Shown piece after piece: positions 39,316-53,782 of a stretch of 64,000 nt of DNA (positions are counted from its first letter, which is position 1; every line of letters begins with the position of its first letter). The position numbers and the translations under genes were made by a program. Below the pieces are notes generated by a model that made no database searches, was not told where the DNA came from, and saw only the letters and a program-made list of their open reading frames with translations. The DNA is taken from the NCBI GenBank assembly GCA_016934395.1, contig JAFGSZ010000049.1, positions 1-64,000 of the forward strand, read 5' to 3'. The stretch comes from Bacteroidales bacterium. GTDB taxonomy: Bacteria; Bacteroidota; Bacteroidia; Bacteroidales; UBA10428.

Positions 39316-39756
39316 TTATAGTTTTTTCACGAAAGACAGAATACCCACACAATCTCCGGGTTTGCCGTCTTTGAAAGATATAAATACATGATAAACGCCC
39401 GTTTTCTGGCATTTAAAATCGAAAAAAGGATAGTCTTTTCCAGTAGCAGTCATAAAACTGCTACCCAGCATATTATTCATTTCCCATAATTGCAATACTC
39501 CTTCACCTTCTGAACTTGGAGATGTACAAATGGAAAATCTATACACTGTACTTTTACTTAATACCATTGAAAATTTCGCTGTAGGAGCTTTTCCTCCGGG
39601 CGTGCCGGCATCCAGCTTAACAACAAAATCTTTTAAATATGTAACATTACCTGCATTAGCAGCACACTGGGCAACGAGTTGTGCATTATCTTGTGCCGAC
39701 AGGTTTACACCAAAAATGATTAATAATATTACAATTAATTTAATAGTAAGTTTCAT
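39316..39756 (-). CDS. small secreted protein, unknown function
   Basis: 146-residue exported protein with signal peptide cleaved near LSAQ. The mature part holds four Cys (QCAANAG, ICTSPSSEGEG, KCQKTGVYHVFI, GDCVGIL), which could give two disulfides, and is beta-rich. The pattern TGVYHVFISFKDGKPG looks like a carbohydrate- or ligand-binding beta-sandwich, but no family is recognised. Two bases after the upstream lipoprotein gene, so they are made together. It ends the long minus-strand locus. Confidence 0.72.
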   Translation of the reverse strand: MKLTIKLIVILLIIFGVNLSAQDNAQLVAQCAANAGNVTYLKDFVVKLDAGTPGGKAPTAKFSMVLSKSTVYRFSICTSPSSEGEGVLQLWEMNNMLGSSFMTATGKDYPFFDFKCQKTGVYHVFISFKDGKPGDCVGILSFVKKL

Positions 39757-39758
39757 AT

Positions 39759-40664
39759 TTATAAGTTAATTAACCTATTTCGAATTTCTTCAGTTTTATT
39801 TATTATGCTCTTTAAGCGTTCATCCGTTATATGAACAATACTTACATCATTTTGCACAATTACCAGCATTCCGTCTTCTTCTATTGCTTCCGGCTCACCC
39901 TTTTCAATGGTAATGGTAACATCTTTAAACTCATCTTTGATAACTTTTAGGTCGTCAATCAGAGCTTTAAACTGTTTATCGCTTTTATAATTTTCCAGGA
40001 TAAGAATCAGGTCGTTTAAAAGAATCTTTTGGTCGCCAATACGTTCAGCCAGTTGAGGATGAGGGGCTTCTTTTGCAACCTGGGTAGCAAGGTATAAACC
40101 TTCCATCCAAACCCCCGCAACAATTAAAGCGCTAAGATTGCTGCGGTTATTTGTTCTTAAATATTTATCCATCTGGTTAAAGCTATGAACAGAAATGTAC
40201 ATTAGCGAATCAAGGTTTTGATTATTCTGTGCCAGCCTTTTTAAAGTAGTAAAATCAAAAAACTGCCCTACCTTTAATGCATCCGATAAAACCTTTATCG
40301 ATGAAATATAATCAATTACAATACTGGTTTTATTATACATATTCAGGTACCCAAGATCAGCTCCGTATATTCCCAGGTTAAAAGCTTGCTTAAAGCTGTT
40401 ATTCATATCTTCCAGATTGTCGGTTGGGGACAGATATTTATTTGAAAAAGGCACCCCGAGTTCCTTAACAAGATAAGCCATTTCAACCGGTGAAGATATA
40501 TTCTGCACTATATCCTGCATTACTTCTTCGGATATTTCCAAAACACCTTCATTTAATACAGAATCAGGAATTTCAAGTAAAGAATCCTGAGGTTTTTCTC
40601 CTCCTGATCTGCACGAGTATAATACTGTTATACCAATTAGGATGTAAAAAATTCTTTTTATCAT
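39759..40664 (-). CDS. alpha-helical lipoprotein, unknown function
   Basis: 301-residue lipoprotein (lipobox VLYSC, C18), otherwise strongly alpha-helical with no named domain. Features include VEMAYLVKELGVPFSNKYL, FNLGIYGADLGYLNMYN and several long amphipathic helices, the type seen in exported alpha-helical bundle lipoproteins of the phylum. The ATG at 40664 directly precedes the signal; the frame extends to a TTG at 40694. A -7-like element lies 28 bases upstream, so it may be a separate unit from the ABC gene, 71 bases away. Probably periplasmic partner of the small secreted protein. Confidence 0.75.
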   Translation of the reverse strand: MIKRIFYILIGITVLYSCRSGGEKPQDSLLEIPDSVLNEGVLEISEEVMQDIVQNISSPVEMAYLVKELGVPFSNKYLSPTDNLEDMNNSFKQAFNLGIYGADLGYLNMYNKTSIVIDYISSIKVLSDALKVGQFFDFTTLKRLAQNNQNLDSLMYISVHSFNQMDKYLRTNNRSNLSALIVAGVWMEGLYLATQVAKEAPHPQLAERIGDQKILLNDLILILENYKSDKQFKALIDDLKVIKDEFKDVTITIEKGEPEAIEEDGMLVIVQNDVSIVHITDERLKSIINKTEEIRNRLINL

Positions 40665-40691
40665 AATGATGATAATTTTTTTCGATGTTAA

Positions 40692-40699
40692 CAAAAATA
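40692..40699 (-). promoter_or_regulatory. -7 element upstream of the lipoprotein gene
   Basis: Minus-strand TATTTTTG matches TAnnTTTG, 27 bases before the ATG at 40664. No clear -33 element. It suggests that the two envelope genes can be transcribed without the rest of the locus. Confidence 0.4.
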
Positions 40700-40735
40700 A
40701 GAATTTATATAAAGATATTAAAATCTAGTTCAAAC

Positions 40736-43700
40736 TTAACTTCTCTTTTTCAGATTTTGCCCAATACTCAACAATTTATTCAGTGCATTAAGGTATAATG
40801 TAATGTAAAACATTAGCGTAAGTACCCATACTACCAGAATATTAAAGGTATAGGTGTCAAAATATCGCCCTAAGAAATACTTCTTGGGTGCAAAAAAATG
40901 AGCTCTGAAATTAAAGTAACCGGTTCCGATCGGATCGAGATAAATCGGATCGATATGTTGAATCAGCTGATGATTATATTCCAGGATCTTATCTTTTTCG
41001 TAAACCTTTTTAACAATATCAGCAATTCCTTCATTATGATATTGGTCCCTGTACTCCTTGTACACTTCCGGCCTTTTATCAAGTAAAAAATTAATCTTAT
41101 TTTCCTTTTTCCGGTTTGCTACCTGAAACTGATTGGTATAAAATGCATCCAGATCGTCCAGGAACTGATATAATTTTCTTGCAATATCCTGATTATAATC
41201 ACGGGGATTCAGCTGATCAAGGTATTCAAATTCTAAAGTAGGAACATACCAGTTTTCTTTGGCTATTTCGTTAGCAAGAAGCTTCAAATCATCTGCTTTG
41301 TTATTTACCGATCCCGTGGTATGCAATTCATTATTTACCCGTTCGAGCCTTTCCCGCATTTCGGGTAAAAAATATACCTTTTTAAAATCTGCCTGGCTTT
41401 CGAGCTGTTCCAGTTCATAAAAAGGTGCGTTATATTTGTTGTCTTTAAACTGCCGAACCATAAGGGCTTCGTAAGTCCAGCGGGTTACCATAAATTCTGC
41501 GATAGCAGGTACCTTATCAATCCTTCCAATAGTCCGGTTCATTTTATCGAAACTAAACATCGCACCGCTTAATATCATCATCGGGATCATCAATAGCGGA
41601 ATGAGTATGTAGATTGTTACAGCTGAATTAAATGATGCGGAAATATTTAATCCAAGAATATTGGCAAAAGCAGCTGTTGAGAACATTGCCAGCCAATACG
41701 AAAAATACATTCCTTTTATGCCTAAAATAGTATTGGCAATAATTACAAACAAAAAAGCCTGAACAGCTGAAATAAAAAATAAAATAATTATTTTGGACAA
41801 TAAATAGCTCGACCGGCTAAGGTTTAGAAACGCTTCGCGTTTTAATATTTTTCTGTCTTTAAATATTTCTTCTGCGCTTACCATAAATCCCAAAAACAGG
41901 GCAACAATAAGAGACATGAAGATGTAAATATGGATATTTTCGTTTTCTCTGAACAGATAAACATTGGAGTTGGGATCGGCAATAAAATAAATGATGTAGG
42001 AAAGGATAAAACCCAGTACGGGGGCTTCCAGAAGATTTAATGCCACATACTGTTTGTTTTTAATTTTTGAAATAAAATCCCGTATCGAATAAATATAGAA
42101 CTGTTTTAACCATCCGGGTATATTTAAGTTTTTAGGCGGCGATTCTTTAACAAGATCAATTTCTTTATATTTTATCTCGTTTTGAAAATATTCTTCCCAT
42201 TTTTCCGGAGACACCTTACGTGAATCTGTATAATTGCCGAATTCGTCAACAACCTTAGCCTCTATAATATTAAATATTAATTCCGGATTTACATTTCCAC
42301 ATGTTGGGCATTCGCCAACTTCGCTGTTAATCTGAGCATCAAGCTTTTTAAAATACATTACGCTTTCTACGGGATTCCCATAATAAATCATATATCCTCC
42401 CGTATCGAGAATAATCATCCGGTCGAACATTTTGTATATTTCGGATGAGGGCTGATGAATGACCACAAAAATTAGTTTTCCCTTAAGCGTAAGTTCCCGC
42501 AGTAAGTCCATAACATTTTCCGAGTCGCGTGATGAAAGTCCTGAAGTGGGTTCGTCAACGAATAAAATAGCCGGTTCACGAATAAGTTCCAGTGCAATAT
42601 TTAAACGTTTGCGCTGGCCTCCGCTTATTGTTTTTTTAAGTGGATTCCCTACCTTCAAATCACGTTTATCAAAAAGGCCCAGATTAGTAAGTGTTTTATT
42701 TACCAGCGCAGTAATTTCCTCTTCCGACTTATTTTTAAAGCATAATTTTGCATTATAATAAAGGTTTTGAAAAACTGTAAGTTCCTCAATAAGTAAATCG
42801 TCCTGAGGAATTAAACCAATAGCTCCTTCAAGCTTGTCTTTCTCTTTATGTAAATCTATCCCATTAATCAGTACTTCGCCCTTAGAGGGGCTGTCAACTC
42901 CTGAAAGCACATTCAACAAAGTTGTTTTTCCTGCACCGCTTGCACCCATTATACCAATCAGTCTTCCGTGTCCTTCGGAAAAACTAATATTCCTGAATCC
43001 CATATTCCCGTTAGGAAATTCAAATTCAATCTTTCTTGCTACATAAGAAACTTTGCTGGCAGAAATATCCACCATAAAGTGAGCTACCACGTCACTATAA
43101 TACACGGGGGCTCCTTTAGCAAGCTTTACTGCACCACCACTGGCAAATGTGTAAATTCTTGCATTGTTAATAGGAAGACCGTTGAGAAATAAATCTTCAT
43201 TACCTGTATATTTTAAGAAATAAAGATCTACACTCTGAATTCGTAAAATAAAGATATTGGTATCGAGGCGCTTGGTATGAATATATTTGGCGTGTTTATA
43301 CTTAGTATTTTTATCATCAATAATAAGTATGTTACTGTTATCAAGTTCCTCAGGGCTGTTTTTAATCACAAAAGACTCAATACTTTCAAATTCTTCCTTT
43401 GTAACCTTAAATACATCAGCCACAGTATTAATAATAGCCATGCGCTGGTCAGTAAATTTCCGATCAGCGTTTACAATCTCGAATAACCGAACCAGAACAA
43501 CAATTTTCTGCTTTTGAGTAAGAGTTTTATTAATTTTTTTACATAAACCCAGAATCCTTACCGAATCTTTTACAGAAGTTAACCGACCTGTTTTTTTTTC
43601 TTCATCCGAGTCGTTTAACGCTGCATGTTCTTCAAAAAGTGAAAAATATTCTTTTACCTCATTTTCGCCCAGTTGCTGGTTAAGAAAATTCCGTACATAC

Positions 43701-43786
43701 TCTATCTGTGTATTCTCAACCCCTTCATCTTGTTTTGCAATAATTGCAAACAATTGCATCAGGGCCTTTAATATTTCTTCACTCAT
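40736..43786 (-). CDS. ABCG-type ABC transporter with N-terminal TerB-like and FHA-like regions
   Basis: 1016-residue fused ABC exporter. Residues about 1-140 form a helical region like TerB (QLFAIIAKQDEG, then VLVRLFEIVNADRKFTDQR), about 165-245 looks FHA-like (FLNGLPINNARIYTF, VKLAKGAPVYYSD), then the nucleotide-binding domain about 258-490 has Walker A GASGAGKTT, signature ISGGQRKR, Walker B ILFVDEPTSGLS and the H-loop VIHQPSSEI. This arrangement (NBD before membrane domain) is of the White/ABCG class. An ABC2-type membrane domain follows, interrupted by a long extracytoplasmic segment before the last helix. A CPTCG pair lies after the NBD. Substrate is unknown. It follows siaC-like gene by 56 bases. 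Confidence 0.9.
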   Translation of the reverse strand: MSEEILKALMQLFAIIAKQDEGVENTQIEYVRNFLNQQLGENEVKEYFSLFEEHAALNDSDEEKKTGRLTSVKDSVRILGLCKKINKTLTQKQKIVVLVRLFEIVNADRKFTDQRMAIINTVADVFKVTKEEFESIESFVIKNSPEELDNSNILIIDDKNTKYKHAKYIHTKRLDTNIFILRIQSVDLYFLKYTGNEDLFLNGLPINNARIYTFASGGAVKLAKGAPVYYSDVVAHFMVDISASKVSYVARKIEFEFPNGNMGFRNISFSEGHGRLIGIMGASGAGKTTLLNVLSGVDSPSKGEVLINGIDLHKEKDKLEGAIGLIPQDDLLIEELTVFQNLYYNAKLCFKNKSEEEITALVNKTLTNLGLFDKRDLKVGNPLKKTISGGQRKRLNIALELIREPAILFVDEPTSGLSSRDSENVMDLLRELTLKGKLIFVVIHQPSSEIYKMFDRMIILDTGGYMIYYGNPVESVMYFKKLDAQINSEVGECPTCGNVNPELIFNIIEAKVVDEFGNYTDSRKVSPEKWEEYFQNEIKYKEIDLVKESPPKNLNIPGWLKQFYIYSIRDFISKIKNKQYVALNLLEAPVLGFILSYIIYFIADPNSNVYLFRENENIHIYIFMSLIVALFLGFMVSAEEIFKDRKILKREAFLNLSRSSYLLSKIIILFFISAVQAFLFVIIANTILGIKGMYFSYWLAMFSTAAFANILGLNISASFNSAVTIYILIPLLMIPMMILSGAMFSFDKMNRTIGRIDKVPAIAEFMVTRWTYEALMVRQFKDNKYNAPFYELEQLESQADFKKVYFLPEMRERLERVNNELHTTGSVNNKADDLKLLANEIAKENWYVPTLEFEYLDQLNPRDYNQDIARKLYQFLDDLDAFYTNQFQVANRKKENKINFLLDKRPEVYKEYRDQYHNEGIADIVKKVYEKDKILEYNHQLIQHIDPIYLDPIGTGYFNFRAHFFAPKKYFLGRYFDTYTFNILVVWVLTLMFYITLYLNALNKLLSIGQNLKKRS

Positions 43787-43842
43787 TTATATCCGTTGGA
43801 TTATAATCTGAATAATGATACTATGGCAAAAATCTGAGAAAA

Positions 43843-44223
43843 TTATCCTGAATAGGCCACTTGCTCAAATGGTACATCTACTATATCGGAATATTCTTCA
43901 CCAGCTTCTTCCATATCTTCGTCGTCTTCCGGATAATGCCAGCGAATAAGAACATCATTTCCATTTTCATACATCTCTTCAAGCTTCATAAGAATGTCGA
44001 GCAGAATCTTCGAAGAAGCAGTATTAAAGTATGTAAGTTTAAAATTTACAACTGTTTTTTTATTTGGATTCTTTTCATATTCAGACAGCCATGTTAATAC
44101 AGGTTCATAAAACGATGCCACATCTTCCGGCAACGATCTTCCTGCAATTTCCATAATTTCGTTGTCTGCATCTAAAATTATCTTTGGTGTATCTTCTGTT
44201 CCTTGAATTTTTATTGTTTCCAT
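43843..44223 (-). CDS. SiaC-like regulatory phosphoprotein (DUF1987)
   Basis: 126-residue cytoplasmic protein of the SiaC family. Its sequence LTYFNTASSK places Thr at residue 68, the position phosphorylated by SiaB and dephosphorylated by SiaA in Pseudomonas aeruginosa. In that system unphosphorylated SiaC binds and stimulates the diguanylate cyclase SiaD. The C-terminus here has an unusually acidic stretch (PEDDEDMEEAGEE). Seven bases separate it from the siaB-like gene. No SiaD homologue is present in the window, so its downstream target is not known; the next gene is an ABC transporter. Confidence 0.88.
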   Translation of the reverse strand: METIKIQGTEDTPKIILDADNEIMEIAGRSLPEDVASFYEPVLTWLSEYEKNPNKKTVVNFKLTYFNTASSKILLDILMKLEEMYENGNDVLIRWHYPEDDEDMEEAGEEYSDIVDVPFEQVAYSG

Positions 44224-44230
44224 AGTGTTA

Positions 44231-44812
44231 TTATTTAAATTCTCTAGGTATTGTTGATGTTAATAAAAAGAACGATGTATCGTCTGATATTGGGAGAAAG
44301 TGATATTCAAGTTCTTTACCTGTTTTTCTCTTTATATCAATAAAACCAAGCCCGGCGCCTCCCTTTTCAGAAAGTCTGCCTTCTTTCATTTGTTTTTTAT
44401 ACAATTGTTTTAACTCTTCCTTATCCATCCTGTTAATGGTTTCAAGAATATCTGTAAGTTCTTCAATCCTGTCGTTCTCAACAGCATTACCGGTAGTAAC
44501 ACTATATTCGTTATCGCCTTTACTTACGAGAAAAATTCCTCTGCCCGAGAACAAATAATTTTGCGAGGTAAAGTCATCGGCATGTTTGCTAATATTTTGC
44601 AAACATTCTACCATAACGTGAAAGACTTTCCTTTGAACGCTGCCAGATTCATCATCCTTGGCCATATTTGATTCCGTTAAGGACGTAAAGGCCTTAGTAA
44701 TCTGATGGGTAATTTCACCTTCATAGACTAAGGTTATCTCGTGGGCTTTCATAGATTTATAGAACTCATAGACAAATTCCAAAAAACCCTTTACATCTTT
44801 TTTATTGTCCAT
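44231..44812 (-). CDS. SiaB-like protein kinase (GHKL fold)
   Basis: 193-residue protein of the SiaB family (DUF6272), a HATPase-like serine/threonine kinase without a dimerisation domain. ATP-binding motifs: VMVECLQNISKHAD (N box, with Glu, Asn and His) and GGAGLGFIDIKRK (G box). Predicted to phosphorylate Thr68 of the SiaC-like protein encoded seven bases downstream, in a partner switch like SpoIIAB/SpoIIAA. The SpoIIE-type phosphatase gene lies 35 bases upstream. Function by analogy with Pseudomonas; direct data for this phylum are not known to me. Confidence 0.87.
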   Translation of the reverse strand: MDNKKDVKGFLEFVYEFYKSMKAHEITLVYEGEITHQITKAFTSLTESNMAKDDESGSVQRKVFHVMVECLQNISKHADDFTSQNYLFSGRGIFLVSKGDNEYSVTTGNAVENDRIEELTDILETINRMDKEELKQLYKKQMKEGRLSEKGGAGLGFIDIKRKTGKELEYHFLPISDDTSFFLLTSTIPREFK

Positions 44813-44847
44813 ATTATGCTAATTTATATTTATTATATTAATTTTTT

Positions 44848-47466
44848 TTAAAATTCAATTCCAATTAATAACACATCATCAATTTGTTTATGTGATCCTC
44901 TCCAATTTTCAAAATCATTATAAAAAAACTCATTTAGTTCTTCCATAGTTAAATTATTCTGCTCAACAATAGCTTCTTTAATCCTTTTAGGGGAGTATTT
45001 TTTCATATCTTCTCCTCCCAGCTGATCGGGTAATCCATCAGAGAAAAAGAAGATCCGGTCGCCACGTTTATACTTTACTACGTGATTTGTGAATTCTTGT
45101 TCCGGTTTTTTTCTATGAGGAATACCTCCAATGGCTTTTCTGTCGCCCTTAAATTCTTCCAGCTCTCCGTTATTAATGTAATATAAAGGCCGGTGTGCAC
45201 CTGCAAACTGCACTTCTTTCTTTTTGTGATTAATTTTACACAAAGCGATATCCATTCCATCACGTGCTTCTGCGTCGTCCCGGTCTTGTTTTAATGTTTT
45301 TCTTACATTATAATGCAGCTGGTTGCATACACTGGCTGCAGTTTGTTCTGTATTATGATCGGCAATATTGTTTAGAAGGAAATATCCGATAAATGAAAGC
45401 AAAGCTCCCGGAACACCATGGCCGGTACAGTCAACCACGGCAATATATATTTCATCATCTTTTTTGAAAAACCAGGGGAAATCGCCGCTTACCACATCTC
45501 TTGGTTTATAGTAAATAAATGATTTTGGCAGGTGTTCCCGGATTATTTTATTATCAGGAAGTATTGAGGTCTGGATGCGTTCGGCATAATTAATAGAGTC
45601 TTCAATTTTTCGGTTCTTATCCTGTATTTCAAGCTCGATACGTTTTGCTTCTGTAATATCATGGCCTACAAACAGAATTGTTTCCAGTTCGTTTTCATTA
45701 AATTCCGGGATTGCATTAAAGCTCATGATCCGTTCCTGCCCTTCATCCTGCATCCGCACCGGAATAGTAATTTCAGCATTCAATTTTTTGGGTGAAGCTT
45801 TTATTTCATTTATGGTGGATTTAAAATAATTAAGCAACACCGCAGATATTTTTATATCTGATAATGTTTTATTAATAATATCTTTAGGTTCGTATCGAAG
45901 AAACTGTTCTACCACGGGATTGGCATAAAAAAACTGGCCTGCCGTGCTTAACCGGATAATCATATCGAGAGAGTTTTCTGAAAGCGCCTGCATTTTACTT
46001 TTCATTCGCTCCTCTTTCTCGGCCCTCTTTCGTTCTGTGATATCTGTAGAATTTACTATTATTCCATTAATGGCTTTATCTTCGAGAAGGTTTCTTCCGG
46101 TTGATTCCATAAAAATCTTCTGACCATTCTTTTTCATATAGGTATATTGAATGGTAATCGGCGTTGAAGGATCTTCAAACAACTGTTTAAATAAATTTTT
46201 AAAACTGAGTTCTCCTTTTCGAGTCAGCCGGTCAATATCCTTTCCGGTCATCATTTCCTCAGGAGTATATCCAAGTATTTTAGTTACCGAAGGACTTTCG
46301 TAAACCATCTGCTGTTTTTCATTGTAAATAGAGATAATCTCAGAGGCATTTTCAAGAAGGGAATATAATCTTTTCTGGGCATTTTCAACTTCCTGAATTT
46401 TGGATTCAAGCTGCTCGTTAGAATTTCGCAGTTCTTCCTGTGTAGCCCTCATTTCTTCAGCATTTTGCTGAAGTTCTTCTTCGTTTTCCTTCAGTTCCTG
46501 GGTCATCATCTGAGATTCCTTCAGCAACTGCTCCGTTCTTTGGTTAACTTTTAAATTAAAAACGGTACGGGCAATAATTTCACCCAGCTCCTTAAGATAT
46601 CGAATGGTTAATTCGGGTATTTCGGGTTGAATGGTAGCAAATTCAATTACTCCCTGCAATTTTTCATCTGTGATAAGCGGAACAAGTAAAATACTTTGTG
46701 GTTTCTGATCACCAAGAATTCCTGAAGTAATGGATACATAATCATCAGGAATTTCTGTACGGTAAATATAATCCATCTCATATGCACATTCACCGATAAG
46801 TCCGTAGCCAACCTTAAATTCCTGGTTTATATATTTCTTTCTATTGTATGCATATGTGGCCACATTTCGAAGTAATTGATTTTCTTCGTCGTATATGTAA
46901 AGGGCACCCTGTGTTACGTTTATATATTTAACCAGTGAAGCAATTACCTGATCGGATAATTCATCAATTTTATTATTAATGCGAAGTATATTAGATATAA
47001 TATCTTTCCCTTCGGTAATCCATCCCTGTTCGGATTCTTTTTGGAAATTATTTCTTAAATTTTCCCTCATTAACAATAATGACTGGGCCAAAACATCATT
47101 ATTGGAACGAATATCAAGATGTGTTTCGTAATTTCCTTCTCCTATTTGTTTGGCAAAATCTGCCATTTTATTTAGCCTGGCATCTCTTTCTTCAATCTGT
47201 TTATCAAAAGCCTTTTGTTCCTGTAAATGTTTTCGGGACGTTAAATAAACACTCAACACAAATATTAACGGCATAAAATCCATAATCCACAATACAGGAT
47301 TATCTTTATGTAACTGAAGAAGACCGGCAAATGTTATATGAGCATTACTGTGGAATATGGTTATCAGCCACGAAATTATCGGAAAAAACAACCCTAACAA
47401 AAAAGCTTTTACGGCTGTATTTGATTCAAAAATCTTAAAAATTCTATTTCCTAATATTTTAGCCAT
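44848..47466 (-). CDS. membrane GAF-PAS-PAS-SpoIIE phosphatase (SiaA-like)
   Basis: 872-residue sensor phosphatase. Two membrane helices (about 19-41 and 56-78), a GAF domain (about 165-310), a Glu/Gln-rich coiled coil (about 312-372), PAS (about 373-490), second PAS (about 495-615), and a PP2C-type SpoIIE domain (about 640-872) with metal-binding Asp in SGDFPW, VDCTGHGVPGA, FFSDGLPDQ and IDDVLLIG. It should dephosphorylate the SiaC-like protein when its sensors are active. Pseudomonas SiaA has an extracytoplasmic dCACHE-type sensor instead of GAF/PAS, so input here is different. Directly abuts the GAF gene upstream with no gap. Confidence 0.88.
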   Translation of the reverse strand: MAKILGNRIFKIFESNTAVKAFLLGLFFPIISWLITIFHSNAHITFAGLLQLHKDNPVLWIMDFMPLIFVLSVYLTSRKHLQEQKAFDKQIEERDARLNKMADFAKQIGEGNYETHLDIRSNNDVLAQSLLLMRENLRNNFQKESEQGWITEGKDIISNILRINNKIDELSDQVIASLVKYINVTQGALYIYDEENQLLRNVATYAYNRKKYINQEFKVGYGLIGECAYEMDYIYRTEIPDDYVSITSGILGDQKPQSILLVPLITDEKLQGVIEFATIQPEIPELTIRYLKELGEIIARTVFNLKVNQRTEQLLKESQMMTQELKENEEELQQNAEEMRATQEELRNSNEQLESKIQEVENAQKRLYSLLENASEIISIYNEKQQMVYESPSVTKILGYTPEEMMTGKDIDRLTRKGELSFKNLFKQLFEDPSTPITIQYTYMKKNGQKIFMESTGRNLLEDKAINGIIVNSTDITERKRAEKEERMKSKMQALSENSLDMIIRLSTAGQFFYANPVVEQFLRYEPKDIINKTLSDIKISAVLLNYFKSTINEIKASPKKLNAEITIPVRMQDEGQERIMSFNAIPEFNENELETILFVGHDITEAKRIELEIQDKNRKIEDSINYAERIQTSILPDNKIIREHLPKSFIYYKPRDVVSGDFPWFFKKDDEIYIAVVDCTGHGVPGALLSFIGYFLLNNIADHNTEQTAASVCNQLHYNVRKTLKQDRDDAEARDGMDIALCKINHKKKEVQFAGAHRPLYYINNGELEEFKGDRKAIGGIPHRKKPEQEFTNHVVKYKRGDRIFFFSDGLPDQLGGEDMKKYSPKRIKEAIVEQNNLTMEELNEFFYNDFENWRGSHKQIDDVLLIGIEF

Positions 47467-48255
47467 TTACAATAATTTACTTAAATAATTTCCGGCTTTT
47501 TTGCATAGCTCCGAAATAGTATCTATCGTATTTTTATCAACAGTTTTAAATGATGCCAGTTCAATAATTCCAATTACTTGTTTATTCAATAATATTGGAG
47601 ATATAATTAAATATTTAGGGGCCACTTTTCCCAAACCCGATTCTATCTTGAAATAATTTTCAGGAATTTCTTCAACAATAATAGGCTCCCTGGATTTAGC
47701 CACCTGTCCGGTTAACGCTTCACCCAATTTGAAGTTTTTTGGTTCTTCTTCTCCCGTATATGCAAACCTTGCAAGACATGTATAATTTTGGCTCCGGGAT
47801 TTTTTGCCATAAAACAGTCCCTGAACAAATCCGTATCTGTTTGCTATTTTTTTCAATAATTTTTCACCAAACTCGCTATTGGTTTTAGTAGATTTTATCT
47901 CTTTAAGCACCAAATCAATAAATTCGGCTATATCGGATTCCTCTTCAGATTCTTTCTCTACTTCATCATTTTCTGTCATTTGGGCAAGAATTTCTGATTT
48001 TTCAATTTCAACTTTTTCATGAATTATAGCTGAAATCTTGCCCGAATCTGATGTTACCAGTGAAGAATAAAATATTAAAATAACAAGGGCTAACATTAAA
48101 ATGGTAAAAATAATCAGCCAAAATTTATTTTTGATTTCTCCTCCATCTGCCTGTTGATTCCATGCAATGGCAAAAAAGATAAATGAAATTATCAGAAACA
48201 GTATAAAACTTATAATTGCTATTTTTCGATATTTATTATATAATTCCATTGACAT
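47467..48255 (-). CDS. membrane-anchored GAF domain protein
   Basis: 262-residue protein with two N-terminal membrane helices (about 10-31 and 42-65), a charged linker (about 70-115) and one GAF domain (about 115-260). The GAF has the pattern GEALTGQVA, IPENYFKIESGLG and IIGIIELAS, closely related to GAF domains in its two neighbours. No output domain is present. It may bind a small ligand or act as a membrane scaffold or dimer partner for the phosphatase encoded directly downstream. One base separates it from the cheB gene upstream. Confidence 0.8.
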   Translation of the reverse strand: MSMELYNKYRKIAIISFILFLIISFIFFAIAWNQQADGGEIKNKFWLIIFTILMLALVILIFYSSLVTSDSGKISAIIHEKVEIEKSEILAQMTENDEVEKESEEESDIAEFIDLVLKEIKSTKTNSEFGEKLLKKIANRYGFVQGLFYGKKSRSQNYTCLARFAYTGEEEPKNFKLGEALTGQVAKSREPIIVEEIPENYFKIESGLGKVAPKYLIISPILLNKQVIGIIELASFKTVDKNTIDTISELCKKAGNYLSKLL

Positions 48256-48256
48256 C

Positions 48257-48814
48257 TTATAGTTTTAGCAAAAAGCTGATAATCTGATCGGTGGTATATA
48301 CGTAATCAACCGGGGTAAGTTGCAGTGCCGATTGTGTCATAGCTTTAACTTCACATTCAGCCGGATCCTGCACAATAGCAACACCTCCATTGTCGTGAAC
48401 TTTTTTTAAACCAAAGGCTCCGTCTCTATTTGCTCCAGAAAGTATGATGCCGATTAATTTATCACGATAGGCATTTGCAGCAGTGATAAACGACAGGTCT
48501 ATTGATGGCCTGGAATGATTTAACGGATCTTCAGTGGATAAGGCTATTCTATTAGATAATTCAACAAACATGTGGTAATTTGCAGGAGCAAGATAAGCCT
48601 TACCGGATTTTAATATATCCTTATCATAGGGTTCTTCAATTGGTATATTCGACTTAATGGATAAAGCTTCGACAAAACCAGATCGAACATGCTTTAATCT
48701 GTGTAAACATAATAATACGGGCATTGGAAAATCCTTAGATAAAGAATTCAGAATTTTCGTTACTACCTGAAAACTCCCGGCTGATCCTCCAATAATTATT
48801 GCTTTATACTGCAT
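48257..48814 (-). CDS. CheB-type protein-glutamate methylesterase, no receiver domain
   Basis: 185-residue CheB catalytic domain only. The triad is intact: S11 in GGSAGS, H38 in LCLHR, D131 in SGANRDGAFG. The usual N-terminal receiver, which keeps CheB inactive until phosphorylated by CheA, is absent, so activity would not be phosphorylation-gated in the normal way. The Gly-rich SGANRDG differs from the common TGMGxDG. It follows the second CheR gene by three bases and precedes the GAF gene by one. Removes methyl groups from glutamates, probably on a helical sensor region, but no chemoreceptor is encoded here. Confidence 0.9.
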   Translation of the reverse strand: MQYKAIIIGGSAGSFQVVTKILNSLSKDFPMPVLLCLHRLKHVRSGFVEALSIKSNIPIEEPYDKDILKSGKAYLAPANYHMFVELSNRIALSTEDPLNHSRPSIDLSFITAANAYRDKLIGIILSGANRDGAFGLKKVHDNGGVAIVQDPAECEVKAMTQSALQLTPVDYVYTTDQIISFLLKL

Positions 48815-48817
48815 TTT

Positions 48818-49642
48818 TTAAAGCTTCTTTTTATACACCCTTTCGAATTCATTTATTATTTCAAAACCCTTATAGGTTGAAGATTCTCGAATCTTTTCCC
48901 GAATCCCGATAATCAGCAATCCTGTAGCGGAAAGGTTTTCATACATATTTGCTAAAACCTTTTCCTGAAGAGTAGGATTATAGTATATTAAAGAATTTCG
49001 AAATATAATAAGCTTCACATTAATAGGTGAATCATCAAAATTAATATTTTGTCTTCGAAATTCAACATTATTAATTAACGACTTATTACGAATAGCAAAA
49101 TACCTGTCGATGGTATAATAGGATTGAAAACTCCCGCTTCCCTGAAATCTTTTATAATTTTCGGCAGAAATTTCAATTTTTTTCAGATCGTAACTTCCGT
49201 TTTTTATGTTGATAATATTTGCTTCGCTCGCACTTGATGCAATAATTTTTACCTTATTCAGTAACCCGATCTCATGCAATAAAATACAAAGGCTATAGAG
49301 TTCGCCTCCGGAAACACAATTGGGCAGCCAAATTTTATAATTCATCAAATCATGATCACTCAAATTTGCAAAATGCACTTCTCTAAGCCATCTCCAAAGT
49401 GAAGGATCCCGAAACATCTCTGAAGACGGAACAGATATTTCGTGTAAAAAAGTATCAAATTCTTCCGGGTGTTCTTTTAACTTTTTTAGTAAGCCATTTG
49501 CATCAATAAGGCTATTACGGATGATAAACTTTTCAAGACGTTGCTTTAAGGAAGTCAAAGCATAATTAGAAAAATCATACTTATATTTTGTTTGAATCGT
49601 CTTTAAAATTTCGCGTATGTCAACAATACCTAAATCTATCAT
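48818..49642 (-). CDS. CheR-like protein with degenerate SAM-binding motif
   Basis: 274-residue CheR family protein with both parts: the helical N-terminal domain (YDFSNYALTSLKQRLEKFI) and the Rossmann-type domain. The SAM motif that reads AGCSTGQE in the first CheR of this locus is PNCVSGGE here, the following acidic strand (ASDINSDV) is ASSASEAN, and the CRNVIIYF catalytic-site segment is FRNSLIYY. The acidic residue expected to hold the SAM ribose is thus missing. It may be inactive and act as a binding partner or regulator. Coupled to cheB by a three-base gap. Confidence 0.85.
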   Translation of the reverse strand: MIDLGIVDIREILKTIQTKYKYDFSNYALTSLKQRLEKFIIRNSLIDANGLLKKLKEHPEEFDTFLHEISVPSSEMFRDPSLWRWLREVHFANLSDHDLMNYKIWLPNCVSGGELYSLCILLHEIGLLNKVKIIASSASEANIINIKNGSYDLKKIEISAENYKRFQGSGSFQSYYTIDRYFAIRNKSLINNVEFRRQNINFDDSPINVKLIIFRNSLIYYNPTLQEKVLANMYENLSATGLLIIGIREKIRESSTYKGFEIINEFERVYKKKL

Positions 49643-49654
49643 GTAATTGCCGTA

Positions 49655-51838
49655 CTAATTTTGAATATTTTCAGTAATATCTGTGGCCAAATTAAAAATT
49701 CTTGATTCCCGGCCTGATTTTTCTTTTATTATTGTAAAATATTCCTTCAGGAATATTTTTTTATTTTTTATTTTAAATTCCTCAATAATAGATACATCAG
49801 ATCCTGATTTTAATTTTTTTAATACTGAACTTTCAAATTTTTCAAAAGACCCAGAAGTTGTTAAATCGGAGTGTTTTTTCCCTTTGATTTCTTCCTGATT
49901 TTTCCCCAGAAGTTTTAAAAACTTTTGATTTGCTTTTATTATTTTACCTTCCAGATCGTATTCCATTACATGGGCAACGCTATTCACAGCGTCAATTGTG
50001 ATCGCCATTTCATCTTCCCTTCTTGTTGAATCTTCTTGTGTAGCCTGTAATTCTTCCATGTTCTGACGCATTTCTTCTTCCTGTTCCTGCATCACCGCTG
50101 CCTGGCGCTGGGTTTTTTCAAGCAATTCACTGGTTTTTGTATTATTCTGGGATATTTTAATAGAAGAGGCCATAGAATTGGCCACCTGTTGTACTAAATT
50201 TAGTTGAAAATCAGTAAAGGCTTTTAAAGAGGCTATTTCCAGCACACCTAATACCTGTTCATCTTCCAGCATTGGAACAAGCAAAAGGTGGTTTGGCGGT
50301 GCATCTCCAAGCCCGGAAGTAATAATAATATATTCCGGGGGAACATCTTCAATTTTAATAATTTTCTTTTCAATTGCGCAGGTACCAACAAGTCCCTCTC
50401 CAAACATTATAGATTTGGTGATATATTTTTTACGGTTATATGCAAAGGCGGCTTTTAACTCAAGAGTATTATTCTGGTCTTCGTTAATAAGATATAATCC
50501 GCCTTGTACTGATTCTGTATATTTAACCAATTCACGAATAAATACATCAGTAAGCTGTTGAATATTATTACTATTATTGTTGATTATTTCAGAGAATTTT
50601 GCAATCCCTTCATTAATATATCTTCTTATTTCATTCTCTTTCGAATATTCAACATGTTCTTTCAGGGTAATATTTATTTTATCCTTAAGTTTCAATAGAT
50701 TTATTCCCAACTGGTCTTCCTCATTAACTTTTAACTCTGCATTAACATCATCTTCAACAAGTTTCTGTGTAAATAGATTTTTTTCCTGTAATCCTTCAGA
50801 CAGGATATTAATGCTGTCTGCAATAGTATCATATTCAATTGTAGATTTATTAAGTTCAATTTTATCATCAATAATTCCGAGACTTATATTGGAAATATAT
50901 TTCAACAAAAATTTTACAGGCTCAACAAAAACAGTTCTTACAGATCTAAAATAACCAATAACTAAAAAACATATTATCACAAATACGATTATCAGGCCTA
51001 TAGCGGCAAAATTTCTCCTGGAAATTTTTTGATTTTCAACAACAGCAAGTAAATTATCCGAGGCTTCTAAAAGTTTGCTATCAGACAATTCTAACGCGGC
51101 AAGGTCTCCATCAATGGTGTTTCTGCCTAATTTATTATATAAATCGGTAAGTTGCTGCCCGATATTTGTATATAAATAAATGTTCTCGTTAAGTTCAATG
51201 CTGGAAAAATCGTCAGAATTTATATTAGATAAACTATATTGAAGGTTATTCAATTGATCTGAAATATCCTCCATTATAGAAGTCTGCCCATGAACTAAAA
51301 ATTTGTTTTCTAATATCCTGATTTTTGAAAATTCCAGAATCAATTTCTCATTTTGAATATTTATTATTTGATTTTCAAGCTTATCTCCTGTTTCAATCCA
51401 ATCGGAAATCAGGCCAAAATCTATATTCCCAATCTGTTTGTATGCGTAAATAACTCCCTGAAAAATATCCTTATTTTTAGTCAAATCCAGAATAATTTCT
51501 TCGGCAAGTGTATCTGATTTTTTAAGATACCGGGATGAAAACACGGATAAAGATTCGGTTATATCCTGATATTCTTTTTGATAGATTTCAAGATAATTGG
51601 TTTCTCCTTTTAAAAATAATTTAATGTCTTTATCGGCATTTAATAAAAATTCAGCCTGCAAAACCTGAAGCTTATCCATCTTGGATGTAATGGCAATTGC
51701 ATCAACTCTTGATTTTTCGTAAGAATAATAATTACGAACTATTAAAATTATAAGTATAGACGATAAAAGAAAAATGAATAGTGAAACAAAAATAAGGTTA
51801 AAAAAATGCCTTCCAATTGTTTTTTTGTTACTTTTCAT
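49655..51838 (-). CDS. membrane sensor: periplasmic helical region, GAF, coiled coil, PAS, no output domain
   Basis: 727-residue membrane protein. TM1 about 12-34, an extracytoplasmic helical region about 35-277, TM2 about 278-299, a HAMP-like linker, then GAF about 400-560 (GEGLVGTCA, IIITSGLGDAPPNHLLLVP, VLGVLEIAS), a coiled coil near 565-605 (ELLEKTQRQAAVMQEQEEEM) and a C-terminal PAS about 610-727. There is no kinase, cyclase, phosphatase or chemoreceptor hairpin. The layout up to the linker resembles a chemoreceptor, and the coiled-coil Glu/Gln pairs are possible CheR/CheB methylation sites. It sits between two cheR genes (25 and 12 bases). Confidence 0.83.
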   Translation of the reverse strand: MKSNKKTIGRHFFNLIFVSLFIFLLSSILIILIVRNYYSYEKSRVDAIAITSKMDKLQVLQAEFLLNADKDIKLFLKGETNYLEIYQKEYQDITESLSVFSSRYLKKSDTLAEEIILDLTKNKDIFQGVIYAYKQIGNIDFGLISDWIETGDKLENQIINIQNEKLILEFSKIRILENKFLVHGQTSIMEDISDQLNNLQYSLSNINSDDFSSIELNENIYLYTNIGQQLTDLYNKLGRNTIDGDLAALELSDSKLLEASDNLLAVVENQKISRRNFAAIGLIIVFVIICFLVIGYFRSVRTVFVEPVKFLLKYISNISLGIIDDKIELNKSTIEYDTIADSINILSEGLQEKNLFTQKLVEDDVNAELKVNEEDQLGINLLKLKDKINITLKEHVEYSKENEIRRYINEGIAKFSEIINNNSNNIQQLTDVFIRELVKYTESVQGGLYLINEDQNNTLELKAAFAYNRKKYITKSIMFGEGLVGTCAIEKKIIKIEDVPPEYIIITSGLGDAPPNHLLLVPMLEDEQVLGVLEIASLKAFTDFQLNLVQQVANSMASSIKISQNNTKTSELLEKTQRQAAVMQEQEEEMRQNMEELQATQEDSTRREDEMAITIDAVNSVAHVMEYDLEGKIIKANQKFLKLLGKNQEEIKGKKHSDLTTSGSFEKFESSVLKKLKSGSDVSIIEEFKIKNKKIFLKEYFTIIKEKSGRESRIFNLATDITENIQN

Positions 51839-51863
51839 ACTAAAATTGACTTAGTTGGTGTTT

Positions 51864-52703
51864 TTATACTTTATAATATGCGTATCCTTTTTTACTAAAT
51901 TTTACACTATGGGGGCCAAGTATAGTTTCATGCATTCCCAAAATCACACTTCCGCTATCATACAGGTTACTATGAAATAATTCGAAAATCCGGTTCTGCA
52001 AATCATAGTTAAAATAAATAATAACATTTCTGCATAAAATTAAATCAAATTTAACATACATGGTATTCCCGTCCTTCACCAGGTCATGCTTTTTAAATAT
52101 TGGTTTATCCCGTAGAAATTTATGCATTTTAATTGTATCTTTTGTTTTATCGATACTAAAATATTTATCATACGGAATATCATAATATTCTTCGTAATTA
52201 TAAGGATTTTCTTTTACAACTTTATCAAAATTATCGAGATAACCTATATTAAACCTGAATTTATAGGTACCATTGGCTGCCGCATTTAAAACATCTGAAT
52301 TAATATCTGAGGCATATAATTTTGTTTTCTCAAGAATTCCCATCTCGTTAAGAAGAATCATCATGGAATATACTTCCTGGCCTGTGGAACATCCGGCATG
52401 CCAAATATTAATTACAGGATTATTTTTTAATTTCGATAAAATAGAATACCTGATGTATTGCCATACCTGTGGATCTCTGAATAATTCTGTAGTATTAACC
52501 GTGATATCCTTTATTGTCCGTTCTACAAAATCACTATCTTCTTTTATCTTTTTAATGAAGCTGGTAACATTAGTGTTATTATCTATAAGAACTTTAGTTA
52601 ATCTCCGCTTTAATGATTTTTCAGAATATTGGCTAAAATCATAATTTGAAGAGGTTTTTAGGGTATAAATAAACAACTGAAAGTCCTGTTCCGAAACCGT
52701 CAT
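51864..52703 (-). CDS. CheR-type protein-glutamate methyltransferase
   Basis: 279-residue CheR with complete motifs: N-terminal helical domain (YDFSQYSEKSLKRRL), VNTTELFRDPQVW, SAM-binding AGCSTGQEVYS, acidic ASDINSDVL, and LCRNVIIYFN. It should methylate glutamates using S-adenosylmethionine. First gene of the long minus-strand locus. No chemoreceptor, CheA, CheW or CheY occurs in the window, and the first protein downstream is a sensor with a coiled coil. No pentapeptide docking tail was seen in neighbours. Starts at ATG. Confidence 0.9.
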   Translation of the reverse strand: MTVSEQDFQLFIYTLKTSSNYDFSQYSEKSLKRRLTKVLIDNNTNVTSFIKKIKEDSDFVERTIKDITVNTTELFRDPQVWQYIRYSILSKLKNNPVINIWHAGCSTGQEVYSMMILLNEMGILEKTKLYASDINSDVLNAAANGTYKFRFNIGYLDNFDKVVKENPYNYEEYYDIPYDKYFSIDKTKDTIKMHKFLRDKPIFKKHDLVKDGNTMYVKFDLILCRNVIIYFNYDLQNRIFELFHSNLYDSGSVILGMHETILGPHSVKFSKKGYAYYKV

Positions 52704-53164: not shown

Positions 53165-53782
53165 ATGGAATTATCCGACGCTATTAAAAGCCGTACAAGT
53201 ATTCGAAGTTTTACAGATGAAAAGATCAATCTGGAAGACATTAAAAACATTATAAATCTGGCCGGTTATGCTCCAAGTGTAAATAATTATCAGCCATGGA
53301 AGTATATTGTAATTACCAATCATGAACTCATGCAAAACATGGCAGGTCTGGTAATAAAAAAAATTACCCAAATTCCGTTAAAAAAAAGTATAGCTGCTGA
53401 AAATCTCCGTTCGCAGGTTACCTGGTATTCTACTTTTTTTAAAGATGCTCCTGCAATTATTGCTTTAGCAATTATTCCTGATGAAACCGTATTAGAAAAG
53501 GCTGTTCAGTTATCGCATGAGGAAATAAATAAAATTCGAAACTACCCTGATATCCAAAGTGCAGGTGCAAGCATACAAAATCTTCTGCTTGCAGCAACAG
53601 AAAAAGGATATGGGACGTGTTGGCTAAGCGGGCCGATGTTTGCAAAAACAGAAATTGAAACCATGCTGAACATTACGGCTCCCTGGAGCTTATTAACATT
53701 TGTAGCTATTGGAAAAGCAAAGAATATTCCCAAACTTAAAGAAAAACTTAACCTTGCCGATTCAATTGAAATTTTTGATTAG
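53165..53782 (+). CDS. nitroreductase family flavoprotein
   Basis: 205-residue FMN-dependent oxidoreductase of the nitroreductase fold. SRTSIRSFTDEKI with the conserved FMN-phosphate-binding Arg, GYAPSVNNYQPWKYIVI with the flavin contact Asn/Gln, SAGASIQNLLLAATEKGYGTCW, and a C-terminal FVAIGKA. Natural substrate is unknown; members reduce quinones, nitro groups or flavin. Single gene, ending 11 bases from the convergent histidine kinase gene. Confidence 0.9.
   Translation: MELSDAIKSRTSIRSFTDEKINLEDIKNIINLAGYAPSVNNYQPWKYIVITNHELMQNMAGLVIKKITQIPLKKSIAAENLRSQVTWYSTFFKDAPAIIALAIIPDETVLEKAVQLSHEEINKIRNYPDIQSAGASIQNLLLAATEKGYGTCWLSGPMFAKTEIETMLNITAPWSLLTFVAIGKAKNIPKLKEKLNLADSIEIFD

Follow-up and report, generated by a model that had tools for sequence, protein, structure and literature searches.

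Organization of the gene cluster

Analysis of a 64,000-nucleotide stretch of a Bacteroidales bacterium draft genome (assembly GCA_016934395.1, contig JAFGSZ010000049.1, positions 1 to 64,000; this whole stretch is called the window) revealed a run of eleven genes on the minus strand at 39316-52703, with intergenic gaps of 0-56 bases according to the open reading frame positions. The cluster joins two known kinds of system, chemosensory adaptation by CheR and CheB and the SiaABC partner switch, and continues into an ABC exporter, a lipoprotein and a secreted protein. A first-pass annotation had listed these genes with their order and gaps, and all eleven were recovered at the same positions. 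Domain calls by Pfam and NCBIfam agreed for nine genes, while the last two gave no useful family score. In their order along the minus strand the features are:

51864..52703, minus strand: CheR1 (PF01739, 124.6 bits; motifs HAGCSTGQE, SDIN and CRN intact; best solved relative the CheR 5ftw)
49655..51838, minus strand: SENS, a GAF - coiled coil - PAS receptor (GAF_2, 58.2 bits; PAS_9, 33 bits; coil with EELQAT)
50039..50056, minus strand: candidate methyl-accepting site E595-E596-L-Q-A-T in the SENS coiled coil
48818..49642, minus strand: CheR2, a probable pseudo-methyltransferase (PF01739, 84.7 bits; aligned to 5ftw)
48257..48814, minus strand: CheB without receiver (CheB_methylest, no REC; PF01339, 160.6 bits; aligns to 3sft)
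47467..48255, minus strand: TM-GAF membrane protein (GAF_2, 40.9 bits)
44848..47466, minus strand: SiaA, GAF - coiled coil - PAS - PAS - SpoIIE/PP2C (SpoIIE, 67.2 bits)
46441..46458, minus strand: candidate methyl-accepting site E337-E338-M-R-A-T in the SiaA coiled coil
44231..44812, minus strand: SiaB-family kinase, HATPase-like, DUF6272 (NF038262, 175.8 bits, cut-off 85)
43843..44223, minus strand: SiaC phosphoprotein with Thr68 (PF09345, 145.7 bits, cut-off 24.5)
40736..43786, minus strand: TerB - middle domain - ABCG half-transporter (TerB, 38.8 bits; ABC_tran, 111.1 bits; ABC2_membrane, 77.8 bits)
39759..40694, minus strand: all-alpha lipoprotein, conserved partner of the exporter (no Pfam hit; lipoprotein signal read by eye)
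39316..39756, minus strand: secreted beta-sandwich protein, the last gene (AlphaFold2 model; signal peptide read by eye)

The host genome is a draft of 4.53 Mb in 155 contigs. Directly after the last gene, at 39292-39274 of the minus strand, is a terminator-like hairpin followed by a T tail, as the first-pass annotation had noted, but by itself it is not significant, since the region contains nine such hairpins against 8.3 in shuffled sequences. A promoter scan was uninformative (66 matches vs 66.5 in shuffled sequence).

Conservation of the cluster and co-occurrence with CheR1

Conservation was analyzed in a sample of 119 genomes from 118 families of the window's order, in which 34 loci besides the window were read, and in 80 named loci with the lipoprotein gene at their centre. 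A score of at least 1141 bits defined an exporter orthologue, and a cut-off copy in G044 (931 bits, 64% identity) was added. The CheR1 profile scores split cleanly, at least 287 bits against at most 238 bits, and placed CheR1 in 43 of the 119 genomes. The exporter orthologue was present in 38 genomes, all of which had CheR1 (38/38), and in none of the 76 CheR1-less genomes; exporter relatives at 1e-60 were found in 51 of the 119 genomes, CheR1-less ones among them.

Among the 32 order-sample loci whose flank upstream of the exporter spans 4.8 kb or more, SiaB was found in 31, SiaA in 29, TM-GAF in 21, CheB in 19 and CheR2 in 19. In the 53 named loci with the same flank, which exclude six duplicates of the order sample, the respective numbers were 49, 48, 46, 47, and 46. 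SiaC was directly upstream of the exporter in 30/31 order-sample and 53/59 named loci with enough flank, and the lipoprotein and the secreted protein were downstream of it in 29/31 and 58/59, the presence of the lipoprotein in the named loci being partly by construction because these were located via that protein. SENS is optional and missing from many clusters, SiaA and TM-GAF being the steadier partners. The named loci are from metagenome-assembled genomes (MAGs) of Bacteroidales or Bacteroidota, with Salinivirgaceae (order Bacteroidales) among them; the exporter of several is identical to that of an order-sample locus. One of them, L138, is titled Chlorobiota bacterium and groups among the Bacteroidales loci in the exporter tree; it is perhaps a mislabelled MAG.

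The two halves of the cluster can be separated. In 13 of the 32 order-sample loci, the genes that precede the exporter did not include CheB, and in 15 core genomes the Che module was read apart from SiaA. CheR1-CheR2-CheB-TMGAF formed a group of its own in 12 of these (L152-L155, L158-L163, L165 and L166; CheB was taken by position where gene calling had missed it), while L156 lacked CheR1, and L157 and L164 lacked TM-GAF. TM-GAF adjoined CheB in 13 of the 15. In the named locus L101, the Che and Sia-exporter halves were adjacent and convergent.

In a second order, three genomes of family f126 (L263-L265) carried the run CheR-CheB-TMGAF-SiaA-SiaB-SiaC-ABC exporter-lipoprotein-small secreted protein. 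The single CheR of these clusters keeps its motifs intact, the CheR2 profile gives it the highest score, and the motif of the SiaA coil is present. A chance neighbourhood is ruled out, since the gene run recurs across the order and in a second order. The cluster is thus conserved, the opposite of the outcome that the first-pass annotation had named as speaking against its proposal. Other arrangements were also observed. In L151 (4848-11340) and L147, CheR1 is directly upstream of the exporter, lipoprotein and secreted protein genes and is preceded by a gene of about 352 residues, the L147 lipoprotein giving a tblastn match but no open frame in the gene calling. In L117 and L121, two genes (243 and 353-358 residues) replace SiaABC ahead of the exporter, lipoprotein and secreted protein.

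Conservation of the catalytic residues

Active-site alignments of CheR1, CheB, SiaA, SiaB and SiaC, whose rows include some duplicate loci, showed that CheR1 residues S106, G108, E110, D133 and C224-R225-N226 were kept in 58/58 rows and that the CheB Ser-His-Asp triad was invariant where covered (S11 in 72/72, H38 in 73/73 and D131 in 74/74 rows). Judged by its sequence, CheR1 is a protein-glutamate methyltransferase with complete catalytic motifs. In CheR2, an Asp occupied the acid position of the S-adenosylmethionine site in only 1 of 73 rows and motif I was degenerate. The second CheR listed by the first-pass annotation has thus lost this acid in 72/73 rows and is probably a catalytically dead pseudo-methyltransferase. 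As the one CheR of the f126 clusters is intact and matches the CheR2 profile best, the Bacteroidales CheR2 may be a former enzyme that was retired once CheR1 arose.

The proposal of a SiaABC-type switch gained support from the sequences. The metal-site Asp residues of the SiaA PP2C domain (SGD, DxTGHG, DG, DD) were kept in 86/86 rows, the SiaB N-box residues E69 and N73 in 97/97, and SiaC T68, aligned to T68 of Pseudomonas aeruginosa in the stretch LLYLNTSSIK, in 96/96. All three proteins scored below their equivalog cut-offs: the C-terminal match of SiaA to NF038263 had 182.5 bits (cut-off 700), SiaB had 84.3 bits with the kinase_SiaB equivalog (cut-off 225) and passed the family model NF038262, and SiaC had 90.5 bits (cut-off 150). 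Hydropathy revealed two strongly hydrophobic segments each in SiaA and SENS. SiaC occurs in 10 copies in this genome and in up to 21 in relatives. In Pseudomonas, Thr68 of SiaC is phosphorylated by SiaB and dephosphorylated by SiaA, as described in the accessible portion of PMC7647112, and its known target SiaD is bound by unphosphorylated SiaC, according to the consulted part of PMC8457831. The eleven cluster proteins gave no hit to GGDEF, the domain of SiaD; SiaD and CheY were not searched for genome-wide.

The methylation consensus in the GAF coils

The SENS segment EELQAT and the SiaA segment EEMRAT match the published methylation consensus of Tsr and methyl-accepting chemotaxis proteins (MCPs), and both lie in the coil, as read from the sequence, right after the GAF domain. 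The Glu pairs of SENS are at 588/589, 595/596 and 602/603, the last being E-D. The GAF-coil parts of SENS and SiaA are homologous, with 37% identity over 200 residues.

A search for DNA encoding EE[LMIVF]x[AST][ST]QE[ED], which covers only part of the Ser codons, found the motif in 38 of the 119 order-sample genomes, 35 of them with CheR1, and a reversed control gave 2 hits in total. By position, the CheR1-less motif genomes G098 and G107 had it only in a CheB-CheR hybrid, and G103 in a hybrid and in one further hit (C1:199549, EEFAASQED) that by eye sits in a peptidase-like protein and was taken as chance. Outside such hybrids, the motif was present in 33/43 genomes with CheR1 and 0/76 without it (p = 7e-21), or 33/43 and 1/76 with the G103 chance hit counted (p = 2e-19). 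For this count, G026, G090, G098, G103 and G107 were treated as hybrid-only, the hybrids being placed by position, and G080 and G093 were counted as motif genomes although their motif rows are unlisted, as their SiaA has the site. Among genomes with 4-9 GAF_2 hits, the corresponding values were 10/13 and 0/18 (p = 6e-6), or 10/13 and 1/18 with the G103 hit (p = 6e-5).

An unselected comparison, blind to the motif, started from the GAF_2 rows at 74 bits, went down the listing and considered the 75 residues after each domain. EExxA[ST] followed within this span in 16/39 rows from genomes with CheR1 vs 0/14 from those without (p = 0.005); in a closer score band and with the misframed row L322 dropped, the CheR1-less rows gave 0/11 (p = 0.01), and reruns gave p = 0.005 to 0.02. 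This comparison omitted the window's own sensor (with CheR1) and G027:C57 (without); G035 contributed several rows, and three CheR1-less rows scored slightly above the band of the CheR1-positive rows. Among the CheR1-positive rows without the motif, several were relatives with a decayed coil, and others were of a different type or ended after GAF. CheR1-less coils that resemble the motif coil have another form, without Ala-Ser/Thr. Glu pairs in heptad spacing were also considered as a mark of methylation and dropped, as CheR1-less post-GAF coils share the 7-residue spacing (QQEELRVTNEELEEQ), a coil form that we take to be common in GAF histidine kinases. Since other post-GAF coils also have spaced Glu pairs, only EExxA[ST] was kept as evidence.

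In a phylum sample of 296 genomes, the motif was found in 41, of which 39 had a CheR domain, compared to 187/296 overall (p = 9e-7). The hits in hybrids were mostly of the Thr-Ser or Ser-Ser form, and G150 and G409 were the motif genomes without CheR. The Ala-Ser/Thr form was found outside the order in the three f126 genomes with the cluster and once in G335, about 0.6 kb past the CheR domain of a hybrid. Of the other f126 genomes, G194, G229, G312 and G390 had no motif, and G194 and G229 also had no CheR.

In SiaA, the exact consensus occupied the site columns in 60/73 loci with linked CheB (56/67 without six duplicates) vs 1/11 unlinked loci (56/67 vs 1/11, p = 3e-6); L105 and L079, whose contigs begin inside SiaA, were dropped from this count. 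Paired independent contrasts of SiaA motif and linkage on the exporter tree were not significant, and the tracking of Che linkage by the SiaA motif is suggestive only. The first-pass annotation had proposed that glutamate methylation adapts the GAF sensors. In its favour, the consensus in SENS and SiaA co-occurs with CheR1; as to the target, the sensor it had named is optional, and SiaA is itself a candidate substrate.

Motif-carrying proteins that look like receptors lacking an output

Of the 60 motif loci, 35 were read, one per genome (L171-L205; L206-L230 were left out). They gave 34 proteins, 27 of them with Ala-Ser/Thr; L189, in which the motif has Phe, was excluded. Five of the 27 are SiaA, and the other 22, which look like receptors, end 25-411 residues past the motif, with no histidine kinase, GGDEF or SpoIIE signature after it. 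Pfam analysis of 10 of these 22 receptors revealed sensor-type domains only (GAF, PAS, HAMP, dCache and hemerythrin). SENS itself had no output domain. Two of the motif GAF-coil-PAS receptors (L172 and L177) end in hemerythrin and are possible oxygen or redox sensors.

The window's genome holds five further carriers, three of beta-propeller/Y_Y_Y-GAF type, one HAMP-GAF and one dCache-GAF-PAS, in which Pfam found no catalytic output domain. Their surroundings, as far as read, contained no Sia or Che gene; for two of the carriers the stretch read is truncated by the end of a contig. Among the matches listed for the order sample, 139 were placed, of which 116 were outside the cluster (28 genomes), 19 inside it and 4 in hybrids; this placement omits G082 and three CheR1-less genomes, and the matches outside the cluster were not each read. 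In G065:C62, G064:C12, G024:C1 and G097:C24, a CheB of receiver-containing length is followed downstream, within about 2 kb, by a GAF-coil receptor motif.

Chemotaxis genes elsewhere in the genome

The first-pass annotation had reported chemoreceptor, CheA and CheW as absent; this holds for the cluster, but all of them are present on other contigs of the same genome. Contig C133 carries a CheB of receiver-containing length, a CheR, two CheW, one MCP and a 685-residue CheA-like protein that, read by eye, has a CheW domain at its C-terminal end, and contig C147 carries two further MCP-domain proteins. The three genome hits to MCPsignal were all on C133 and C147, C79 and the contigs holding the other five carriers having none, and the three CheW-domain hits were all on C133, with no CheA or CheW within the cluster. 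The gene content of C133 and C147 thus indicates that the cell has the chemotaxis parts that the cluster lacks. One of the C147 proteins (G000:C147:12816-16103; L053:2817-6104) has 1095 residues, a C-terminal MCP signalling domain (83.9 bits) and, by eye, N-terminal propeller-like repeats, and is an MCP counterpart of the propeller-GAF-coil receptors.

The exporter, its partners and neighbouring genes

The exporter combines an ATPase and an ABC-2 permease in a single chain of the ABCG type (ABC_tran 111.1 and ABC2_membrane 77.8 bits). The only PDB match of its middle domain was weak (MEK1 entry 5yyx, E = 0.13), and the matched part of that entry is presumably the FHA domain of MEK1. The middle domain might be FHA-like; Pfam did not support this, with FHA found in 0/24 sequences and 0/3 paralogues. 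In its AlphaFold2 model (pLDDT 82), the lipoprotein is largely alpha and has a small beta part; no PDB match with E <= 0.001 was obtained for its fold. The secreted protein was modelled as a beta-sandwich (pLDDT 90.6) with seven weak fold matches at E <= 0.001, including pre-peptidase C-terminal (PPC)/collagen-binding domains and PliG.

A paralogous TerB-ABCG exporter is convergent to another SiaB-SiaC pair elsewhere in the genome (L055; G000:C143:28000-44000), and, judged by position, several genomes show this layout again with high-scoring SiaC copies. A further relative of the exporter, 38% identical, is on a Parabacteroides distasonis plasmid (NZ_OY725823.1:202163-205081). Upstream of the cluster are a divergent nitroreductase-like gene (53165-53782, plus strand) and a PAS hybrid histidine kinase with a receiver (53794-55812, minus strand), both named by eye from the translation.

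Proposed function and alternative explanations

The interpretation we favour, with a probability of roughly 0.55, is a partner switch equipped with sensory adaptation, in which CheR1 and CheB would adapt receptors other than MCPs and the output would pass from the SiaA phosphatase to SiaC Thr68 and the exporter. Membrane receptors with GAF and a methyl-accepting coil, that is, SENS and the five dispersed ones, would sense signals without an output of their own, and SiaA, taking the position of CheA, would probably supply the output within mixed receptor complexes. CheR1 would methylate the second Glu of the EExxA[ST] sites, predicting SENS E596 and SiaA E338 as modified residues, and the REC-less CheB would demethylate them, while a non-catalytic CheR2 would probably tether or restrain CheR1. 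Methylation turnover would reset phosphatase activity after a sustained stimulus, the direction of this effect being presumed. As SiaA is itself a candidate substrate, methylation may act directly on the phosphatase. Control by coiled-coil linkers has been reported or proposed for PPM phosphatases, diguanylate cyclases and kinases (PMC12143880, in the text available), which would give methylation a route to phosphatase output. CheR has been reported to methylate a protein other than an MCP, PhoP, where the mass spectrometry described in the accessible text of PMC8546571 located the site at Arg112 and did not detect Glu sites. SiaA would dephosphorylate SiaC Thr68 and SiaB would rephosphorylate it, and the phosphorylation state of SiaC would probably gate the adjacent TerB-ABCG exporter, whose partners would be the lipoprotein and the secreted beta-sandwich protein. 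An action of SiaC on the exporter is suggested by their adjacency and by the second SiaB-SiaC/exporter pair (L055).

Several observations weigh against this interpretation. TM-GAF, a steady companion of CheR1 and CheB, had the methylation consensus in 0/77 sequences and was dropped as a methylation substrate. The motif was missing from 23/39 unselected GAF coils of genomes with CheR1, from 10/43 such genomes outside hybrids (8 had none and 2 were hybrid-only), and, in its exact form, from SiaA in 13/73 linked loci. The 7-residue spacing of Glu pairs recurs in other post-GAF coils, so that only the Ala-Ser/Thr discriminates. Most phylum hits lie, by position, inside CheB-CheR hybrids, and the association of motif and CheR at that level is thus largely built in. 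The counts in the order sample ignore kinship, and the association of CheR1 with the motif may partly reflect shared ancestry. The drop of the SiaA motif in unlinked loci is not independent evidence either, since the exporter tree has only three changes of linkage. In addition, CheR1 adjoins the exporter in L147 and L151 in the absence of SiaABC and CheB, the core genome G007 has CheR1 but only a CheB of receiver-containing length, and exporter paralogues occur in some CheR1-less genomes.

Part of this evidence could be read differently. In one alternative, the EExxAT coil would be a lineage-specific structural linker inherited with CheR1, while CheR1 and CheB would target another protein such as TM-GAF, or CheR1 and CheR2 would mainly act as a scaffold. 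The retention of CheR2 despite its lost catalytic residues, the shared ancestry that the link between motif and CheR1 could reflect, and the position of TM-GAF next to CheB in 13/15 displaced modules all fit such a linker. We regard it as improbable, because TM-GAF has the consensus site in 0/77 sequences, the active sites of CheR1 and CheB are invariant in the rows read, and the conserved coil residues are those of the CheR consensus, at which the coils of CheR1-less relatives differ. It is unlikely, too, that CheR1 and CheB methylate only separate receptors, namely SENS and the dispersed GAF-coil proteins, which would contact a SiaA whose motif is a structural remnant. The 116 of 139 placed matches outside the cluster (28 genomes, among the matches listed) would agree with this, as would the loss of the exact SiaA motif in 10/11 unlinked loci, most of whose genomes retain the motif elsewhere; against it, the exact SiaA site is present in 60/73 linked loci and in the second order, and SENS is missing from many clusters. 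Quite improbable is an explanation in which CheR1 and CheB serve the ordinary chemoreceptors of C133 and C147, the adjacency to SiaABC reflecting co-regulation of motility and surface behaviour and the GAF coils staying unmethylated. CheR is able to act in trans, and the genome holds three MCP-domain proteins and a CheA/CheW set. However, the che operon owns a CheR and a CheB of receiver-containing length, the GAF coils have the methylation consensus, and CheR1 accompanies the SiaABC-exporter core in 38/38 genomes, even when unlinked.

The last step of the favoured reading meets a more serious competitor, to which we give less than an even chance: SiaC may have no contact with the exporter and may activate a diguanylate cyclase or another unlinked protein as in Pseudomonas, the exporter being merely co-expressed. 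The known SiaC target is SiaD (PMC8457831, in the part consulted), the genome has 10 SiaC copies, and the exporter occurs without SiaABC in L147 and L151. On the other side stand the position of SiaC directly upstream of the exporter (30/31 order-sample and 53/59 named loci), the paralogous exporter convergent to a second SiaB-SiaC pair in L055 and the lack of a GGDEF hit in the eleven cluster proteins. The first-pass interpretation is supported in part, while the observation on which it was built is confirmed.

A wider reading of the adaptation-equipped switch is tentative, and we would not call it probable: Bacteroidales may possess a second methylation-adapted sensory array, in which diverse receptors are pooled onto SiaA, reset by CheR1 and CheB, and control the exporter. 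The varied sensor domains of this array (beta-propeller/Y_Y_Y, dCache, HAMP, PAS and hemerythrin) would share GAF and a coil that replaces the MCP hairpin. CheR/CheB methylation is the memory of chemotaxis and is built into MCPs. If the array exists, it would be chemotaxis-style signalling on a Ser/Thr partner switch without CheA, CheW and CheY. Should CheR and CheB also modify GAF-coil receptors and a PP2C phosphatase, sensory adaptation would be a transferable module that also fits Ser/Thr phosphorylation. This would further assign a function to Bacteroidales receptors that have a sensor but no output domain and would provide a lead to the signals that TerB-ABCG exporters respond to. The first-pass annotation knew of no description of such a circuit; likewise, a search of the open PMC literature, with subscription papers outside its scope, found among the matches listed no report that combines CheR/CheB with SpoIIE/SiaABC or describes methyl acceptors of the GAF-coil type.

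Comparison with known systems

CheR-CheB loci beside large Bacteroidota sensors (most of L267-L280) resemble this cluster in having a REC-less CheB and a stand-alone CheR. Their neighbour is a protein of about 1130-1450 residues that is hit by the SENS, SiaA or TM-GAF profile and that we take to be a hybrid histidine kinase. Unlike the present cluster, these loci have no SiaABC or exporter, and six of them (L272 and L276-L280) have the other coil form. CheB-CheR-PAS hybrids share a similar 16-residue coil (EEMQNTVEEMQTSQEE) after the CheR domain within one chain, as on C60 of the window's own genome. They differ in being one polypeptide, in having mostly Thr-Ser or Ser-Ser for Ala-Thr in the phylum listing and, in the locus read (L054), in showing no linkage to SiaABC. 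In contrast to MCP-based chemosensory adaptation, the receptors here have no MCP signalling domain, CheB comes without a receiver, CheA and CheW are missing from the cluster, and the carrier that does have an output domain is a phosphatase.

RsbU-type PPM phosphatases likewise combine sensor domains, a coiled coil and a PPM phosphatase that feeds a partner switch; unlike the proposal made here, RsbU is controlled by RsbT binding, and the available part of PMC12143880 mentions no covalent adaptation. As in the SiaABCD system of P. aeruginosa (PMC7647112, in the portion at hand), a PP2C phosphatase, a SiaB-family kinase and SiaC are encoded in one operon-like run, and SiaC Thr68, the SiaB N-box and the PP2C metal-site residues are kept. 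The present cluster differs from that system in its lack of SiaD, in the scores of SiaA, SiaB and SiaC below the equivalog cut-offs, in the GAF-coil-PAS-PAS region that SiaA has ahead of PP2C, and in being tied to an exporter and to CheR/CheB.

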